Source of the DNA: Chloroflexota bacterium
Lineage (GTDB): Bacteria > Chloroflexota > Limnocylindria > Limnocylindrales > CSP1-4
Assembly (NCBI GenBank): GCA_013815585.1
Contig: JACDFU010000008.1
Span: 1 to 33,131, forward strand
DNA length: 33,131 nt
Reading direction: 5' to 3'
Both the position numbers and the translations under genes were made by a program. The notes beneath the pieces are model-generated. The model saw only the letters and a list, made by a program, of their open reading frames with translations. It did not search any database and was not told the DNA's origin. This document shows positions 9,879-20,687 of the stretch, piece by piece (the first letter of the stretch is position 1; every line of letters begins with the position of its first letter).

Positions 9879-11471
9879 TCAGCTGAGCTCGACTTCCTCC
9901 CGCCAGGTTGGACGGTGCGTTTGCAGGCCGAGGGCCTGGACCTTCGGCTCGAGCGCCTCCTCGGCCGGGGGATCGCCGTGGACGAGGAAGACGCGCTTGG
10001 GCTTCCTGCTCGCTTTCGCGAAGTGGCCGAGCCAGTCGAGCAATTCGCTCTCGTCGGCATGGGCGCTGAACCCGCTGATCGAGCGGATCTCGCACCGCAC
10101 CTCGTGCCAGCCGCCGTCGATACGCACCTTCTTCGCCCCGGCCTGGAGATGCGCGCCGAGTGTGCCCTCACCCTGGTAGCCCACGAAGAGGACGATGCCG
10201 GCCGGATCTCCGATGATGTCCCGCAGGTGATGGAGCACGCGGCCGCCGGTCAGCATGCCGCTCGACGCCACGATCATCATCGGCCGGGGCGCACGTCGGA
10301 CCTGCTTTGACTCGTCCGCGGTGCGGGTGACCGTCGTGCCGGGGTAGTCCAGCGGCGTTTCGCCGCTCTGGAGTAGCTCATGGGTCTGCTCGTCGTAGTA
10401 GCCGGGGAACGCGGCGTAGACAGCGCTCGCCTTTGTCGCCATCGGTGAGTCGAGGTACAGCGGCACGTGCGGGATACGGCCCGCCTCCAGCAGCCGATCC
10501 AGCACCCAGACGACCTCCTGCGTCCGCCCGATGGCGAACGAGGGAATGAGCAGCACCCCCCGGTGGTCCGCCACCGCACCCACCGCCTCCGCCAGGAGGC
10601 GGATCGCCTCCTGCTCCGGCTCGTGCTCGCGGCCGCCGTAGGTCGACTCCACGAGGACGTAATCTGCCCCGTCCAAGATGGCCGTGGGATCCCGGATGAT
10701 CGGCGTGTTCGGCCGGCCAAGGTCACCGGAGAAGCAGATGCGGGTCTGGGATCCACCGCCTTCGCTCGCGTCGACGACGATGATCGCCGAGCCAAGGATG
10801 TGGCCGGCGTCCCGGAAGGTCGCCTGCACGCCGTCCGCGACCTCGATGACCTCGTCGTAGTCGATCGGCTGGAACTGGGCGATTGCCGCCTCCGCGTCGT
10901 CAACGGTGTAGAGCGGCTCGAACAACGTGGTCTCGACTTCCGGGGGCTGACGTCGAAGCGCCTCCTCCGGGTCGTGGCCGGTCTCCTGCCAGTCCTCCGG
11001 TGCCCACGGTCGCCCGCGCCCGCGGCGCTCGTGAAGAGCCTCCTCGCTGGATGCCGCGTGGCCTGCGCCCGAGCCATCGGCCGCTGGGACCTGGCCGCCG
11101 CGCTCCGCCTCCCTGCGCGCCTTGCGCTCCTCCTTCCTGCGCCGGTCGTGGGCCTGCTCGACCTGGAGCTTGGCGCTATCGAGCAGGACGATCCGGGCCA
11201 GCTCGGCTGTCGCCCTGGTGGCGAAGATCGGCCCCCTGAACCCCTCGCGCACCAGCAGCGGGATCAGGCCGCAATGGTCCAGATGGGCATGGGTGAGGAG
11301 GAGTGCGTCGATGCTCGATGCGTCGTAGGCAAGCGGTACTCGGTTGCGAGCGCTCTCGGTCGGGGAGCCCTGGAACATCCCGCAGTCCACGATGACGTTC
11401 GACTCACCGGCGGTGAGGAGGAACTGCGACCCGGTGACCGTCGTTGCGGCGCCTAGGAACTGAAGCTTCAT
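9879..11471 (-). CDS. MBL-fold RNA-processing exonuclease/endonuclease, beta-CASP family
   Basis: MKLQFLGAATTVTGSQFLL, LLTHAHLDHCGLIP, FSGDLGRPNTPI, ESTYGGREH, SSGMLTGGRVLHHL, SGFSAHADESELLDWL, VHGDP. Confidence 0.93.
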   Translation of the reverse strand: MKLQFLGAATTVTGSQFLLTAGESNVIVDCGMFQGSPTESARNRVPLAYDASSIDALLLTHAHLDHCGLIPLLVREGFRGPIFATRATAELARIVLLDSAKLQVEQAHDRRRKEERKARREAERGGQVPAADGSGAGHAASSEEALHERRGRGRPWAPEDWQETGHDPEEALRRQPPEVETTLFEPLYTVDDAEAAIAQFQPIDYDEVIEVADGVQATFRDAGHILGSAIIVVDASEGGGSQTRICFSGDLGRPNTPIIRDPTAILDGADYVLVESTYGGREHEPEQEAIRLLAEAVGAVADHRGVLLIPSFAIGRTQEVVWVLDRLLEAGRIPHVPLYLDSPMATKASAVYAAFPGYYDEQTHELLQSGETPLDYPGTTVTRTADESKQVRRAPRPMMIVASSGMLTGGRVLHHLRDIIGDPAGIVLFVGYQGEGTLGAHLQAGAKKVRIDGGWHEVRCEIRSISGFSAHADESELLDWLGHFAKASRKPKRVFLVHGDPPAEEALEPKVQALGLQTHRPTWREEVELS

Positions 11472-11487: not shown

Positions 11488-12156
11488 TCAGGCCGCGCCT
11501 TCGGCGAGCATCGGGTCCACCTGCTCCTCCCGGCGCCGCCGCATGACCCTTCCCTCCGGGTCGCAGACGCGGAGTGAGGCCTGGACCACCGGGCCGATGC
11601 CGAACGCGAACACGATCGTGCCCAGGCCGATCGTGCCCCCGAGCAGGAAGCCTGCCACGAGGACCGTGACCTCGATCACGGTGCGAGCACGGGCGATGCT
11701 CCAGCCGAACCGGTGGTGGACACCGGTCATCAGCCCATCCCGCGGTCCCGGGCCTAGGTCGGCCGACAGGTAGAGCCCGGTCGCAATCCCCATCATCACC
11801 ACGCCACCGGCCATGAGGGCGAGGCGGTAGGGCAGGTCCGCCGGCACCGGCAGCACGGCCATGGCGACGTTGGTGGCGGTCCCCACGGTGATGATGTTGA
11901 GGATGGTGCCCGGACCCGGGCGCTGGCCGAGCGGCAGCCAGGCAAGAAGGATCGGCACGCCGAAGAGGATCGACACGGTCCCCAGCGGGATGCCGGTCTG
12001 GCGGCTGATCCCCTGGTGGAAGGCCTCCCACGGCCCGAGGCCCAGGTTGGCCTGGGCCATCATGGCGATGGCCACCCCGCACAGCACCAGCCCGACCATG
12101 AGCCCCGGCACTCGTCGGAGTGCCGCAGCTGTCCATCGCTCGCCCACCCGCGGCAT
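11488..12156 (-). CDS. YczE/YitT-like integral membrane protein
   Basis: MPRVGERWTAAALRRVPGLMVGLVLCGVAIAMMAQANLGLGPWEAFHQGIS: repeated hydrophobic segments and LGLGPWE / LGPGPRDGL repeats typical of YczE-type proteins. Confidence 0.78.
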   Translation of the reverse strand: MPRVGERWTAAALRRVPGLMVGLVLCGVAIAMMAQANLGLGPWEAFHQGISRQTGIPLGTVSILFGVPILLAWLPLGQRPGPGTILNIITVGTATNVAMAVLPVPADLPYRLALMAGGVVMMGIATGLYLSADLGPGPRDGLMTGVHHRFGWSIARARTVIEVTVLVAGFLLGGTIGLGTIVFAFGIGPVVQASLRVCDPEGRVMRRRREEQVDPMLAEGAA

Positions 12157-12276
12157 GCTAGCCGACGCGGAGGGCCTACCATGGCGGCGCGAATCCGGAC
12201 GCAAGGCGAGACGCCCAACCACCGCCCGGCGCGACGGCCAACCGCGGCCAGATACTCGCTCTGCTACGAGGAGACG

Positions 12277-13062
12277 ATGACCCTGCTGGAGGGAAAGAAA
12301 GCGCTCATCTTCGGTGTGGCGAACGACCATTCGATCGCCTGGGGCATCGCGAAGGCGTTCCATGCCGAGGGGGCGACTGTCGGGTTCAGCTCGGTCGAGA
12401 GCCTCATCGAGCGCCGGGTCCGGCCGCTGGCGGAGAGCATCGGATCCACCTTCGTCGAGCCGTGCGACGTGCAGGACGATGCCCAGATCGAGCGCGTCTT
12501 CAACCGCTGGAGTGAGCAGGAGGGAGCGCTCGACATCCTCGTCCACGCCCTGGCGTTTGCGAAGCGGGAAGAGCTCGACGGTGCCTTTGTCGACACTTCC
12601 CGGGATGGCTTCACGCTGGCGCTGGACGTCAGCGCCTATTCCCTCGTCGCGTTGGCCCGGGCCGCGCGACCGCTCCTCCGACCGGGTTCCAGCATCCTCA
12701 CGCTGACCTATTACGGCGCGGAGAAGGTCGTCGCGCACTACAACGTGATGGGCGTGGCGAAGGCGGCTCTCGAAGCCAGCGTCCGCTACCTGGCGGCAGA
12801 CCTGGGACCCGAGGGCGTGCGCGTGAACGCCATCAGCGCCGGCCCCATCCGCACCCTCGCCGCATCGGGGATCGCCGGCTTCAAGGGAATGTACGGCACC
12901 TTCCGCAACGTTGCGCCGCTACGGCAGAACATCACGATCGGGGATGTCGGGAACACGGCCGTCTACCTGGCGAGCGACCTGTCGCGAGCGGTGACCGGGG
13001 AAGTGATCTACGTGGATGGCGGCTTCAGCGTCCTCGGCGTGCCGCTGCCCGACGAGGGTTGA
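12277..13062 (+). CDS. fabI: enoyl-[acyl-carrier-protein] reductase (NADH)
   Basis: LEGKKALIFGVANDHSIAWGIAKAFHAEGA, HALAFAKREELDG, LTYYGAEKVVAHYNVMGVAKAAL, NAISAGPIRTLAASGI; SD GAGGAGA before the ATG. Confidence 0.95.
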   Translation: MTLLEGKKALIFGVANDHSIAWGIAKAFHAEGATVGFSSVESLIERRVRPLAESIGSTFVEPCDVQDDAQIERVFNRWSEQEGALDILVHALAFAKREELDGAFVDTSRDGFTLALDVSAYSLVALARAARPLLRPGSSILTLTYYGAEKVVAHYNVMGVAKAALEASVRYLAADLGPEGVRVNAISAGPIRTLAASGIAGFKGMYGTFRNVAPLRQNITIGDVGNTAVYLASDLSRAVTGEVIYVDGGFSVLGVPLPDEG

Positions 13063-13181
13063 TCCGAGCGGAGGTGCGCCGGCACCCTGCCGCGCCACCA
13101 GCGGCCGCCTGGCGCGCGGGCGGGCGACCAGCCGCGAGTGCGCGGCATCCCCCGAATGGACGGGGCCGCCTTCCACCACAG

Positions 13182-13440
13182 ATGCGCTGAGCGCATGCTG
13201 TCCAGGCCGGGTCGGTGCCGCTGCCACAAATCATGCGGGAGCCGCATGAGTGGTGGGCTCCTCGCGTCCATTCCGGCCGTCATTCCGCCGGCGATGCGCC
13301 AGGCGCATCGGTGACAGGACGCGTCCCGCCGGGAGCTCCGGCGAGCTGGAGCGCATGCGGTGGCCGCATGGCTGACGGAGATGGGCGCCCAGGGCGCACC
13401 GCCAGTCCCCGGTTTGCTGTCACTGATGCGAGCTGCGCAT
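13182..13440. repeat. array of five perfect 15-bp dyads ATGCG-N5-CGCAT with near-integral helical spacing
   Basis: Copies at 13182-13196, 13233-13247, 13294-13308, 13355-13369 and 13426-13440; centre spacings 51, 61, 61, 71 bp. Confidence 0.93.
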
Positions 13441-13497
13441 CGCTGACCGGTTCGCTGCGGGAGTCCTCGGAAACCCGCGGCCAGCCACACTAGGGTC

Positions 13498-14712
13498 ATG
13501 CCTGACTCGTCTCTGCCGCCCAGCTTCGACCCATTGGCGCCGCTCCCTGGGCCGCCCGAGCCCTGGACGAGCTCGACCATGCCTGAGCCGCGAGAGGGAC
13601 CGCCCTATCGCATGACGGAGATGATCGCCGCTGAGCCGGCCCTCGCGGAGCGGCTGTTGCGACGCCTGGAGGCCGATCCCGCGGTGGCAGAGCTGGCAGG
13701 GGCCATCCAACGGGCTGCCCGTGCCGACGAGCCCATTCGCCTCACGGGCTGCGGGACCAGCGAGCACGCCGCCCAGGCCATCGCCGTGATCCTCGGGGAG
13801 GCGCTGCTCCGGGTGGACGGCCACTCACGAGCCGGTCGGCAGCTCACCTCTGAGCAGGCGTTCGAGGTCGTCCTCGAGCCCCAGGCCGCCGGGCTCATGG
13901 TGGCCGTCTCCCACGAGGGCGGCACCTGGGCCACGAACCGGGCGCTGGATGCGGCTCGCGCGCGGGGCGTGCGCACCGCCCTGATCACTGCTGGCAGGCA
14001 GTCACCGGGCGCGGCGATCGCCGATATCGTCGTGGCCACCGGCGAACAGGACCAGTCCTGGTGCCATACCGTCGGCTACCTGTCGCCCCTCGTGGCTGCG
14101 GTGGTCCTGGCGGGTCGACTCACAGGCAGGCAGATCGATCCAGGGGCCGTGACCAACGCCCTTGGGCGAGCATCGGGGCAGGAGGGCAGAGAGCAGGCGG
14201 AGCAGGTTGCGACCGCCCTCAAGGACGTCGATCGCGTCATCGTGCTGGCCTCCGGAGCGGACAGGCCCGCTGCTCGCGAGCTGGCGCTCAAGATCGAGGA
14301 GGCGGCGCATCTGCCAGCCACCGCCCGGGATGTCGAGACGCTGCTCCACGGCCACCTTCCGGCCGCGGACGACGGCAGCGGCCTCGTGCTCATCCTTGCC
14401 GATCGCGACCATCGGTCGGACCGGCTCGATCGAGCACGTCAGGCCCTCGCCGCCGCGGGAGCCATCGGGGTGGCCGCAGCCGCCATCCTTGCCGAGGAAG
14501 CAGTCGGCGCACTGGCTCCGGAGCTCACCCCCGCCGGGCGGATCGTCGCGCCGGAGATGCCGACACTGCCCGAGGCGGGAGCCGCACTGCTCGGTACAGC
14601 CATCCCGTTGCAAATCCTGACCGAGCGGCTGGCCCGGGCTCGTGGGACCAACCCCGACACGCTTCGTCGCACGGATGAGCGATATCGGAATGCGGCCGCA
14701 ACGTACGAGTAG
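13498..14712 (+). CDS. SIS-domain sugar-phosphate isomerase/aminotransferase-like protein
   Basis: MTEMIAAEPALAERLLRR, IRLTGCGTSEHAAQAIAVIL (GlmS/AgaS-like SIS motif), VSHEGGTWATNRAL, KIEEAAHLPATARDVETLLHGHLPA. An alternative start is 13579. Confidence 0.85.
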   Translation: MPDSSLPPSFDPLAPLPGPPEPWTSSTMPEPREGPPYRMTEMIAAEPALAERLLRRLEADPAVAELAGAIQRAARADEPIRLTGCGTSEHAAQAIAVILGEALLRVDGHSRAGRQLTSEQAFEVVLEPQAAGLMVAVSHEGGTWATNRALDAARARGVRTALITAGRQSPGAAIADIVVATGEQDQSWCHTVGYLSPLVAAVVLAGRLTGRQIDPGAVTNALGRASGQEGREQAEQVATALKDVDRVIVLASGADRPAARELALKIEEAAHLPATARDVETLLHGHLPAADDGSGLVLILADRDHRSDRLDRARQALAAAGAIGVAAAAILAEEAVGALAPELTPAGRIVAPEMPTLPEAGAALLGTAIPLQILTERLARARGTNPDTLRRTDERYRNAAATYE

Positions 14713-17120: not shown

Positions 17121-20100
17121 GTGGTCTGTCCGAGCTGTGGCACGGCCAGCGAGAACGGCCAGAAATTCTGTCCGCAGTGCGGGACGCGCCTCGCGCGCGT
17201 CTGCTCCGCGTGCGGCGCGGCGAACGCACCGACCTATCGCTTCTGTGGCGAATGTGGCTCGGCGCTCGGCGATCCCACTGGGCCGGCTGCGTTCAGCGCG
17301 ACGGCTCCCGCAGGGAACGCTCCGCCGGCTCCCTCCGGCCCTGCTCCGAATCTTCCCGCCACCGTCGCCGAACGCCGCGTGGTGACTGTGCTGTTCGCCG
17401 ATCTTGTGGGCTTCACCGGCCTCGCCGAAGATCGGGATCCCGAGGCCGTTCGGGAACTGCTGACGAGATACTTCGAGCGAGCTCGCGAAACGATCGAGCG
17501 GTACGGCGGCACCGTCGAGAAGTTCATCGGCGATGCTGTCATGGCCGTCTGGGGGGCGCCGATCGCTCGCGAGGACGACGCCGAGCGCGCCGTACGTGCG
17601 GCCCTGGAGTTCGTCGACGTGGTGCGCGGGTTGCGGCCGAGTGCCGAGGGGGACGAGATCCTTGCCCGGGCAGCCGTGCTGACGGGGGAAGCAGCGGTCA
17701 CGCTCGGTGCGACGGGTCAGGGCATGGTGGCGGGCGATCTGGTCAACACCGCGTCGCGACTTCAATCGGTCGCGCCGCCGGGCGGCGTGCTCGTGGGTGA
17801 GTCGACACACGCGGCGACTGCGGAGGCAATCGCGTACGAGCGGGCCGGCGAGCACGTCCTCAAGGGCAAGGCGGCCCCCGTCGCTGCCTGGCGCGCGATG
17901 CGGGTCGTCGCGAAGCTGGGCGGCGTTGCCCGCGCGGAGGGCCTGGAGCCGCCCTACGTTGGGCGTGATGCGCAGCTCCGACTGCTGAAGGATTTCCTCC
18001 ATTCCACGGCATCGGAAGGCCGCCTGCGGTTCGTGTCGGTGACCGGACAGGCCGGGACCGGCAAGAGCCGGCTCACGTGGGAGTTCCACAAGTACATCGA
18101 CGGCCTCGTCGATGACGTGTTCTGGCACCAGGGCCGCTCGCCGGCCTACGGCGAGGGCGTGACGTTCTGGGCTCTCGGCGAGATGGTACGGAAGCGGGCA
18201 GGCCTGGCGGAGGACGACGATTCCGCCACCACCCGGGCCAAGATCAGGGCCGCCCTCGAGGAGTACGTCCCCGACGAGGAGGAGCGCCGCTGGATCGAGC
18301 CCACCTTGCTCGGACTGCTTGGCCTCGAGGAGGTCCGGACGGTAGAGCGCGAGGAGCTGTTCGCCGCCTGGCGGACGTTCTTCGAGCGCGTAAGCGACCG
18401 GGGCGTGACCGTCCTGGTCTTCGAGGACGTTCATTGGGCCGACCAGGGTCTGATCGACTTCATCGACCACCTGGCAGAGTGGTCGACCGAACATCCGATC
18501 CTGCTCCTGACGCTGGCACGCGCGGAATTCCTCGAGACGCACCGGGAATGGGGAGCCGGGCGACGGAACTTCGTCGCGCTCTCGCTCGACCCGCTGCCCG
18601 ACGAGGCCATGGGAGAGCTCCTTGCTGGCCTGGTCCCGGGCCTGCCTGACGCCGCCAGGCAGGCGATCCTCGAACGCGCGGAGGGGATTCCGCTGTATGC
18701 GGTCGAGATGGTTCGCAAGCTTCTCGTCGACGGCCGGCTGGAACGGGTGGGGGACGCGTACCGTCCGGTCGACGACCTCGCGCGCCTCGAGATTCCCGAC
18801 ACGCTGCATGCGCTGATCGCTGCGCGTCTCGATTCGCTCGACCCCGCAGAGCGCTCGCTGCTGCACAATGCCGCGATCCTGGGCCAGACCTTCAGCGTCG
18901 CCGCGCTGGCCGCTGTCAGCGGCAGTCCTGCCGAGGCGATCGAGCCGCTGCTCCGCGACCTTGTGCGACGCGAGGTGCTGGCCCACAACCGCGATCCGCG
19001 CTCGCCGGAGCGTGGTCAGTACGGCTTCGTCCAGGCGCTAATCCGCGAGGTCGCGTACGCGACGCTCTCGCGGCGCGACCGCCGTTCGCGCCATCTCGCC
19101 GCGGCGCGGTACTTCGAGGCGTTGGGCGACGATGAGCTGGCGGGCGTCCTGGCCATGCACTACCTGGACGCTTTTCAGGCCTCCGACGAGGGCCCGGAAG
19201 CAGGCGCCATCGCCGCACAGGCCCGGATCGCCCTGCGGGCGGCGGCCGAGCGCGCCCTGGCACTTCACTCCCCCGAACAGGCGCTGTCGTACGTGGATGC
19301 CGCACTGCAGGTCACCCGCGAGCCCCTTCAGCGCGGCCTCCTGCACGAGCTGGCGGGCAGCGCCGCGCGAGGCGCGGCCAGGTCTGACCTGGCGAGGCAG
19401 CACTATCGTCGGGCGCTCGACGAGCTGACCACTGCAGGTGATGGGCGCGGCATCCTGCGGGCCACTGCCGCCATCGGCACGGTCGCCGCGACGGATGGCC
19501 AGGCCCACGACGCGATCGCGCTATTGGAGCCTGCTGTCGCAACGCTCGGTGAGCTCGCGGATACGCCCGAGGGGATCGCGCTCGTATCCACGCTGGCGCG
19601 TAGTTACCTGTTCGCGGATGACTACGCCCGTGCGATCGAGGCCTCTGACCGGGCTCTGATTGCGGCCGAGGCGATCGACGATATCGCCCTCATCACCGAG
19701 GCGGTGCTGACCAAGGGGACGACGCTCGCGTTCACGAGTCGCCATCGCGAGGCGCTGGTCTTGTTGAGCGGTGCGCTCCAGCTCGCGGAGACGAACGGAT
19801 TCGTCGCCTCGGAACTGCGTGCTCGCCTCAACATCAGCTTCCTGCAGCTCTCTGACGATCCACGCCAATCCTTCGCGTCCGCGTATGCGGGCGTGGAACG
19901 AGCTCGGCGCCTGGGCCTCAGAAATTGGACCTTCCTGCTCACCGGCAACGCGTCCAGCGCTGCCTTTGCCCTCGGCGACTGGGATTTCCCCGTCCACGCG
20001 GCCGAGGAGCTCGCCCCCGCGGACGTCACGCTCTCGGGCACGGACGCCTCCGAATTGGTGGGCGTCTCCATGATCATCCAGGCTCTCCGCGGCGACAGGG

Positions 20101-20687
20101 GAAGTGCGGGCGGCGTCGACCGCTTCGACGAGTTGGTTGCGAACACAACCACGACCCAGGAACAGACAACCTATGCGCTCGTCCACGCTTGGCTGGAGGT
20201 CTCGAGAGGACGGTTCGCGGATGCGCTCGCGCACGACGTCGGCGGTACCGATCCCGCGATCAGCCTGCTGTTCTACGTGCCTGCCACGCACGCGGCCCTC
20301 TGGCTCCGCGACCTCTCGGAAAGCCGCTCGCTTCTGGAACGGATCACCGCCACCGGGCTCCATGGACGCTGGGTCACGGCGCTGGGGCAGGCGGTTGCGG
20401 CTGGAATCGCGGCGCTGGAGGGGCGCCTGCCGGAAGCCGAGGTTGGCTGGACGGCATCGCTGACGGCGTTCCGTGAGATCGGCGCAGTGCGCGACGTGGC
20501 GCTGGTCGAGATGGACCGCGCGGCGCTTGCGGAACCTGCAGTGGCCCAAGCCGCGGCGGGAGCCGCGCGCGAGCTGCTCCTGTCCCTTGGCGCGACCGCT
20601 GCCCTACAGCTTCTGGAACAGATCGGCGCTCAATGGGCGCCGATCCGTGAGCCGGCCACGGATGATGCGCGGGCGCTGTCGCGGTAG
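17121..20687 (+). CDS. double zinc-ribbon, class III adenylate/guanylate cyclase, AAA ATPase and TPR-like regulator
   Basis: 1188 aa: MVCPSCGTASENGQKFCPQCG...CSACG...FCGECG; VTVLFADLVGFTGLAE...FIGDAVMAVWGAP; VTGQAGTGKSRLTWEF (Walker A), VLVFEDVHWAD (Walker B); helical repeats at the C-terminus. Confidence 0.9.
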   Translation: MVCPSCGTASENGQKFCPQCGTRLARVCSACGAANAPTYRFCGECGSALGDPTGPAAFSATAPAGNAPPAPSGPAPNLPATVAERRVVTVLFADLVGFTGLAEDRDPEAVRELLTRYFERARETIERYGGTVEKFIGDAVMAVWGAPIAREDDAERAVRAALEFVDVVRGLRPSAEGDEILARAAVLTGEAAVTLGATGQGMVAGDLVNTASRLQSVAPPGGVLVGESTHAATAEAIAYERAGEHVLKGKAAPVAAWRAMRVVAKLGGVARAEGLEPPYVGRDAQLRLLKDFLHSTASEGRLRFVSVTGQAGTGKSRLTWEFHKYIDGLVDDVFWHQGRSPAYGEGVTFWALGEMVRKRAGLAEDDDSATTRAKIRAALEEYVPDEEERRWIEPTLLGLLGLEEVRTVEREELFAAWRTFFERVSDRGVTVLVFEDVHWADQGLIDFIDHLAEWSTEHPILLLTLARAEFLETHREWGAGRRNFVALSLDPLPDEAMGELLAGLVPGLPDAARQAILERAEGIPLYAVEMVRKLLVDGRLERVGDAYRPVDDLARLEIPDTLHALIAARLDSLDPAERSLLHNAAILGQTFSVAALAAVSGSPAEAIEPLLRDLVRREVLAHNRDPRSPERGQYGFVQALIREVAYATLSRRDRRSRHLAAARYFEALGDDELAGVLAMHYLDAFQASDEGPEAGAIAAQARIALRAAAERALALHSPEQALSYVDAALQVTREPLQRGLLHELAGSAARGAARSDLARQHYRRALDELTTAGDGRGILRATAAIGTVAATDGQAHDAIALLEPAVATLGELADTPEGIALVSTLARSYLFADDYARAIEASDRALIAAEAIDDIALITEAVLTKGTTLAFTSRHREALVLLSGALQLAETNGFVASELRARLNISFLQLSDDPRQSFASAYAGVERARRLGLRNWTFLLTGNASSAAFALGDWDFPVHAAEELAPADVTLSGTDASELVGVSMIIQALRGDRGSAGGVDRFDELVANTTTTQEQTTYALVHAWLEVSRGRFADALAHDVGGTDPAISLLFYVPATHAALWLRDLSESRSLLERITATGLHGRWVTALGQAVAAGIAALEGRLPEAEVGWTASLTAFREIGAVRDVALVEMDRAALAEPAVAQAAAGAARELLLSLGATAALQLLEQIGAQWAPIREPATDDARALSR

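Follow-up and report, generated by a model that had tools for sequence, protein, structure and literature searches.

The region between fabI and a SIS-domain gene in a 33,131-nucleotide stretch of DNA from a Chloroflexota bacterium (the window hereafter) contains repeated copies of the palindrome ATGCG-N5-CGCAT, and this raises the question of which kind of protein reads them and whether they serve the gene that follows. The original prediction was that they form a cooperative array for a dimeric regulator, possibly one controlling amino-sugar metabolism. Five exact matches were recovered where they had been placed, starting at positions 13182, 13233, 13294, 13355 and 13426, and the window holds no other, as had also been claimed. 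The number expected is 0.06, and at least five matches were found in 0 of 100 shuffles. All five have the exact core and fit an extended consensus of 33 bp to which no strand can be given: site 1 at 13173-13205 (core 13182-13196, ATGCG-ctgag-CGCAT), site 2 at 13224-13256 (core 13233-13247, ATGCG-ggagc-CGCAT), site 3 at 13285-13317 (core 13294-13308, ATGCG-ccagg-CGCAT), site 4 at 13346-13378 (core 13355-13369, ATGCG-gtggc-CGCAT) and site 5 at 13417-13449 (core 13426-13440, ATGCG-agctg-CGCAT). Counted from one site to the next, the spacings are 51, 61, 61 and 71 bp, as originally given.

The upstream neighbor, fabI (12016-13062, plus strand), encodes an enoyl-ACP reductase (Pfam PF13561, 1.3e-87); its top NCBIfam matches are all FabI models, each under its cut-off, and the gene probably lies outside the array system. 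The downstream neighbor (13498-14712, plus strand) encodes a GlmS/AgaS-like SIS isomerase domain (Pfam PF01380, 2e-16) and starts about 49 bp past site 5. No sigma-70-like promoter was found in the gap between these two genes. Elsewhere in the window, the minus-strand gene at 9879-11471 encodes a Beta-CASP metallo-hydrolase with an RMMBL domain, for which the nearest NCBIfam models are the type VII Cas14 MBL/CASP and aCPSF1 models (under both cut-offs). The plus-strand gene at 17121-20687 encodes a large protein with a double zinc ribbon, an adenylate/guanylate cyclase domain and an AAA ATPase, and its product matches the TOMM system kinase/cyclase model with a score under the cut-off.

The genome, a MAG of 2.57 Mb in 221 contigs that is 83% complete, contains 19 exact ATGCG-N5-CGCAT sites, compared with 1 for the reversed control. 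The original prediction had named a scattered, REP-like repeat as the contrary case, and the search gave part of each: four further arrays stand beside unrelated genes, yet the sites are clustered, 17 of the 19 lying within the five arrays. When degenerate copies were included, the arrays C13, C110 and C187 reached five sites each, with spacings of 51/61/51/71, 71/50/61/50 and 51/62/61/71, respectively; that of C110 is near the C13 order reversed. The C142 array has four sites (83/82/51) plus a degenerate fifth one, read by eye, at about +51. The neighbors are a sugar isomerase-like gene and proS at C110, a ctaA/ctaB fusion gene at C142, glnA at C187, and a response regulator gene at C13, where a gene for a protein with an XRE helix-turn-helix (HTH) and a PD-(D/E)XK-like domain lies directly 5′ of the array. 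According to gene orientations deduced from codon composition, which are approximate, the C110, C142 and C187 arrays sit between convergent genes. The spacers are unrelated from array to array. A recent mobile repeat with a conserved body was considered for the ATGCG copies and rejected on the lack of common sequence in the spacers.

A consensus built from 24 array copies in this genome showed that the full site is a palindrome of about 33 bp, CtGtCA-N3-ATGCG-N5-CGCAT-N3-TGaCaG, in which CtGtCA and TGaCaG are the outer half-sites. The helical phasing that had been proposed for the window was found in all arrays of the genome taken together, with a best period of 10.2 bp and a mean cosine of 0.946, and none of 20000 random sets was as good. 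The proposed covariation of the inner pair fared less well. The two innermost positions had a weak excess of complementary pairs (13 and 12 of 24, compared with 7.6 and 9.4 expected, respectively), but the palindrome as a whole showed no excess over shuffles, its covariation score of 0.190 (0.175 in shuffles) being equalled or beaten in 113 of 500. The symmetric positions are kept as letters, without compensatory changes, which points to a duplex-type site bound by a dimer rather than a hairpin.

Several arrays of this kind adjoin genes whose products combine an XRE HTH (Pfam HTH_31/HTH_3) and a C-terminal PD-(D/E)XK nuclease-like domain. These genes form two subfamilies, A (P0001 and P0002; up to 13 matches per genome) and B (the C163 gene of this genome and its relatives; up to 11 matches per genome), with partly overlapping lists of matches. 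Subfamily B was present in 34 of 399 sampled genomes of the phylum, all of the same class. AlphaFold models, with pLDDT values of 92 and 91, consist of the HTH followed by an alpha-beta-beta-beta-alpha-beta core. In subfamily B, residues E102, D115, E130 and K132 are invariant in 26 sequences, from which the PD-(D/E)XK site appears intact. Subfamily A keeps D124 and E139 and has an invariant K157 further on; the lysine of its E-x-K motif is not conserved, which makes nuclease activity doubtful. In profile and fold searches of the PDB the HTH was best matched by HigA2, HigA, HipB and C.BclI, while the nuclease-like core gave weak matches to HSDR_N_2, UPF0102 and DruK and a weak Foldseek match to R2. 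No transposase domain was found in the array-associated proteins.

Arrays were then sought around these genes with a de novo detector that accepted 5-bp arms of any sequence and loops of 3-11, with shuffled controls. An array was found upstream of the gene in 11 of 36 cases and downstream in 0 of 35 in subfamily A (Fisher p 4e-4), and downstream in 5 of 26 and upstream in 0 of 28 in subfamily B (p 0.02); related genes were included, so that both p values are somewhat optimistic. By this strict test about a third of the subfamily A genes and a fifth of the subfamily B genes have arrays, with spacing periods of 10.42 and 10.18 bp, respectively. The arms differ among paralogs, being TGGCA, TGGAC, TCGGT, ATCGG, TCGAC and GATGC in subfamily A and TACGC, CACGA, CACGC and ACCGC in subfamily B. 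At C13 the ATGCG array follows immediately 3′ of the gene, the place typical of subfamily B, and no HTH gene remnant was found beside the other ATGCG arrays. A frameshift near L045:1822 interrupts the C13 gene, which may be a pseudogene or reflect an assembly error. The true partner of the ATGCG arrays could be another paralog or could lie within the missing 17% or so of the genome. In this genome, three of the genes of subfamily B are broken up over different frames or separate matches (C13, L045:1565-2127; C24:3987-4569; C163:11667-12080), and in these decay and assembly error are indistinguishable.

Relatives were examined for the same arrangement. Conservation of the array between fabI and the SIS gene would have spoken for the original prediction; no such array was present in the 20 regions upstream of SIS genes of relatives that were long enough to scan, which counts in part against it. 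Few genomes of the phylum, 3 of 399, contain exact ATGCG pairs. When the search was loosened to the pair ATGC-N7-GCAT, phased arrays emerged in 17 of the 107 genomes from the same family, among them Chloroflexi bacterium BP4.bin63, BP4.bin83 and WY3.bin108, with spacings of mainly 30, 42, 52, 62, 72 and 82 bp; the reversed control gave 0 in all. Searches for the window motif in relatives by profile and exact pairs produced few clusters because the relatives use other arms. Many dispersed ATGCG-N5-CGCAT pairs, mostly spaced by 58-61 bp, are also found in Tsukamurella genomes (loci among L061-L177). ATGCG pairs occur in some other genera as well; within the stretches covered, neither these nor Tsukamurella had a subfamily A or B gene, and those of the other genera gave weak generic HTH matches and nothing stronger. 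All of these pairs were judged a separate phenomenon, and those of Tsukamurella look like an independent repeat family. In a Tannerellaceae MAG, seven near-tandem ATGCG-type palindromes with A/T-rich spacers lie 40-41 bp apart (L163:5780-6232), and they are unrelated to the system of the window.

A second dispersed family in the same genome has the arms of the intact C163 gene. The pair TACGC-N7-GCGTA was found at 37 sites genome-wide, compared with 2 in the reversed control, and forms arrays at about 16 loci besides C163, at most of which the layout is 157/50 or 50/157. These copies have part of their interior in common. The copy at C25 retains the C-terminal part of a subfamily B gene as a remnant (57% over 61 amino acids, L319:3711-3863), a stretch that extends up to and into the dispersed array and hints at joint copying of gene and array. 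Dispersal of the TACGC arrays, together with this piece of gene, indicates that these arrays are multi-copy elements of which one copy stands at the gene.

The region upstream of ychF showed how such an array can change. GATGC-N7 arrays are present there in G433 and G426. In G431, where ychF is 92% identical, an array with the spacing 52/52/30/52 stands at the same place with GGTGG arms, and this spacing also occurs in GATGC arrays, e.g., L068. The arms at ychF have changed in concert, all from GATGC to GGTGG, with place and spacing retained. One subfamily A protein of G431 (L275) has an array of its own with the matching half-site and, as read by eye, carries H in the recognition helix where the GATGC-type proteins have Q. 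Across subfamily A, proteins with more nearly identical HTH sequences also had more nearly identical half-sites (Mantel r 0.41, p 2e-4, n=16), a value to which orthologous pairs contribute; the correlation in subfamily B was not significant (n=7, p 0.21). B-type consensus half-sites often have G about 12 and C about 14 bp from the center, which suggests a second contact.

Taken together, we consider it probable, at about 0.66, that the five arrays, that of the window included, are dispersed copies of a putative operator array of about 275 bp that belongs to one member of the XRE-HTH and PD-(D/E)XK-like family. The cooperative array for a dimeric regulator of the original prediction fits the symmetric sites, the strict phasing, the divergent spacers and the existence of a candidate dimeric HTH family that has cognate arrays; its proposed link to amino sugars found no support. 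One dimer would occupy each palindrome, with the HTH reading the ATGCG/CGCAT arms and a second contact, one helical turn further out, reading TGaCaG. The five dimers, on one face of the helix, would touch each other and build a cooperative nucleoprotein block within the intergenic region. To judge by its location, this block may act by blocking, insulating or bending the DNA locally rather than as a classic promoter operator. Arrays between convergent genes and behind their own gene, as in subfamily B, suggest a local block or insulator, and arrays upstream of their own gene, as in subfamily A, and of ychF suggest autoregulation and regulation. The distal copies would have come from duplication of the gene's own array into other intergenic sites, and some at least, such as that at ychF, are probably held by selection to match the protein. 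The nuclease domain might take part in dispersal or maintenance of the arrays, as in REP/RAYT, or be a DNA-binding relic.

Other explanations were weighed against the operator arrays. The dispersal could be selfish, as in REP/RAYT, with the HTH-nuclease protein mobilizing, or having mobilized, the array that belongs to it; the distal arrays, that of the window among them, would be non-autonomous miniatures with no host function. This would account for a gene flanked by an array plus dispersed intergenic copies of fixed architecture (51/61/61/71 or 157/50), for the common interior part of the TACGC copies, for the gene remnant in the distal copy at C25, for the intact PD-(D/E)XK residues of subfamily B and for the tendency of the ATGCG copies to lie between convergent genes. 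However, the ATGCG spacers are unrelated while sites and phasing are kept, the concerted change at ychF at retained spacing points to selection for binding, neither target duplications nor empty sites were observed, the copies are few, and the covariation of REPIN-type hairpins (cf. PMC3116915) is missing; we regard selfish dispersal as unlikely. Sites that organize the chromosome or resemble partition sites, where arrays nucleate a nucleoid or segregation complex, would also be multi-copy, orientation-independent, phased and palindromic and would lie near diverse genes. That each genome has many paralogs, each with a motif of its own, makes this improbable, and no ParA-type ATPase was noticed beside the genes; in comparison with parABS, neither ParA nor ParB was among the neighbors examined in this incomplete genome.

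A reading in which the array is an operator devoted to the SIS-domain (amino-sugar) gene draws on the short distance, about 49 bp, from its end to the SIS start. Against it stand the four other arrays, which adjoin glnA, proS, the ctaA/ctaB fusion and a response regulator gene, three of them between convergent genes, as well as the 20 relatives with no array upstream of SIS and the gap with no sigma-70-like promoter. A SIS-specific operator was rejected as an exclusive reading on the grounds of the other arrays and the SIS genes of relatives, and we give it very little weight. A structured RNA or single-stranded hairpin element, another alternative raised in the original prediction, is hardly credible. 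The inverted repeats are perfect, and the ten array strands folded somewhat more stably than shuffles (z -0.2 to -3.0), but the folding is weak, the covariation is no greater than column composition gives, and the quantized spacing of about 10.2 bp points to duplex DNA. The sole Rfam match in the window was a tRNA, and none fell across the array.

A more tentative proposal, which we judge slightly less likely than not, is that these arrays belong to an undescribed class of genetic elements of Chloroflexota, in which diversified HTH and PD-(D/E)XK-like proteins each have their own phased array, beside the gene and dispersed, with specificity and arrays co-evolving. It would follow a REP/RAYT-like logic built from unrelated parts, with the nuclease possibly copying or conserving the arrays. 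In open full text, the part of the literature that was searched, no paper was found that describes such arrays together with an XRE/PD-(D/E)XK protein. If the proposal is right, the lineage would have a system specific to it, of many paralogous DNA-binding, nuclease-like proteins that each keep private phased operator arrays; it would offer XRE proteins and their cognate DNA sites as a ready-made set of pairs, useful for a recognition code, and, at ychF, a testable case of a whole array changing in concert with its protein. In annotation, such arrays should not be taken as regulators of the adjoining gene.

The proteins share the HTH fold with XRE/lambda-type repressors and with the C proteins of restriction-modification systems (HipB, HigA2, C.BclI, C.AhdI). 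As in those systems, the core is a palindrome of about 15 bp made of two 5-bp half-sites around N5, and the subfamily A arrays lie in the promoter region of their own gene. Unlike them, the proteins described here have a C-terminal nuclease-like domain, the arrays comprise 3-8 phased sites that in subfamily B lie 3′ of the gene, and there are dispersed distal arrays at unrelated genes. Specific binding of these proteins to the adjacent palindromes is indicated only indirectly, by adjacency and by the correlation between HTH and half-site in subfamily A. The core fold is that of PD-(D/E)XK proteins such as UPF0102/YraN, HSDR_N, DruK and the restriction-like domain of the R2 retrotransposon, and E, D and E-x-K are invariant in subfamily B; what sets the present proteins apart is the XRE HTH joined to the core and the palindrome arrays that go with them.

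REP, BIME and REPIN repeats are paired with RAYT transposases (PMC2817692, PMC3116915, PMC3733652). As in REP/RAYT, a protein gene is flanked by palindromic repeats and the same repeat is dispersed in intergenic DNA: the C13 and C163 genes have their arrays on one side, and the distal copies of these occupy 4 and about 16 loci, respectively. Several independent gene/repeat families coexist in a genome in both cases, and the flanking repeats change sequence while keeping their symmetry. The protein, however, is an XRE-HTH and PD-(D/E)XK-like one, whereas RAYT is an HUH/Y1 tyrosine transposase of the IS200/IS605 type. The sites are duplex-type palindromes of 15-33 bp, grouped by 3-8 into arrays phased at 10.2-10.4 bp; they show no compensatory covariation, the GTAG/CGTC tag of REP is absent from the ATGCG consensus, and each family has tens of sites rather than hundreds. 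If the proposal is right, dispersed extragenic palindromes would have arisen by a second route that is unrelated to the first.
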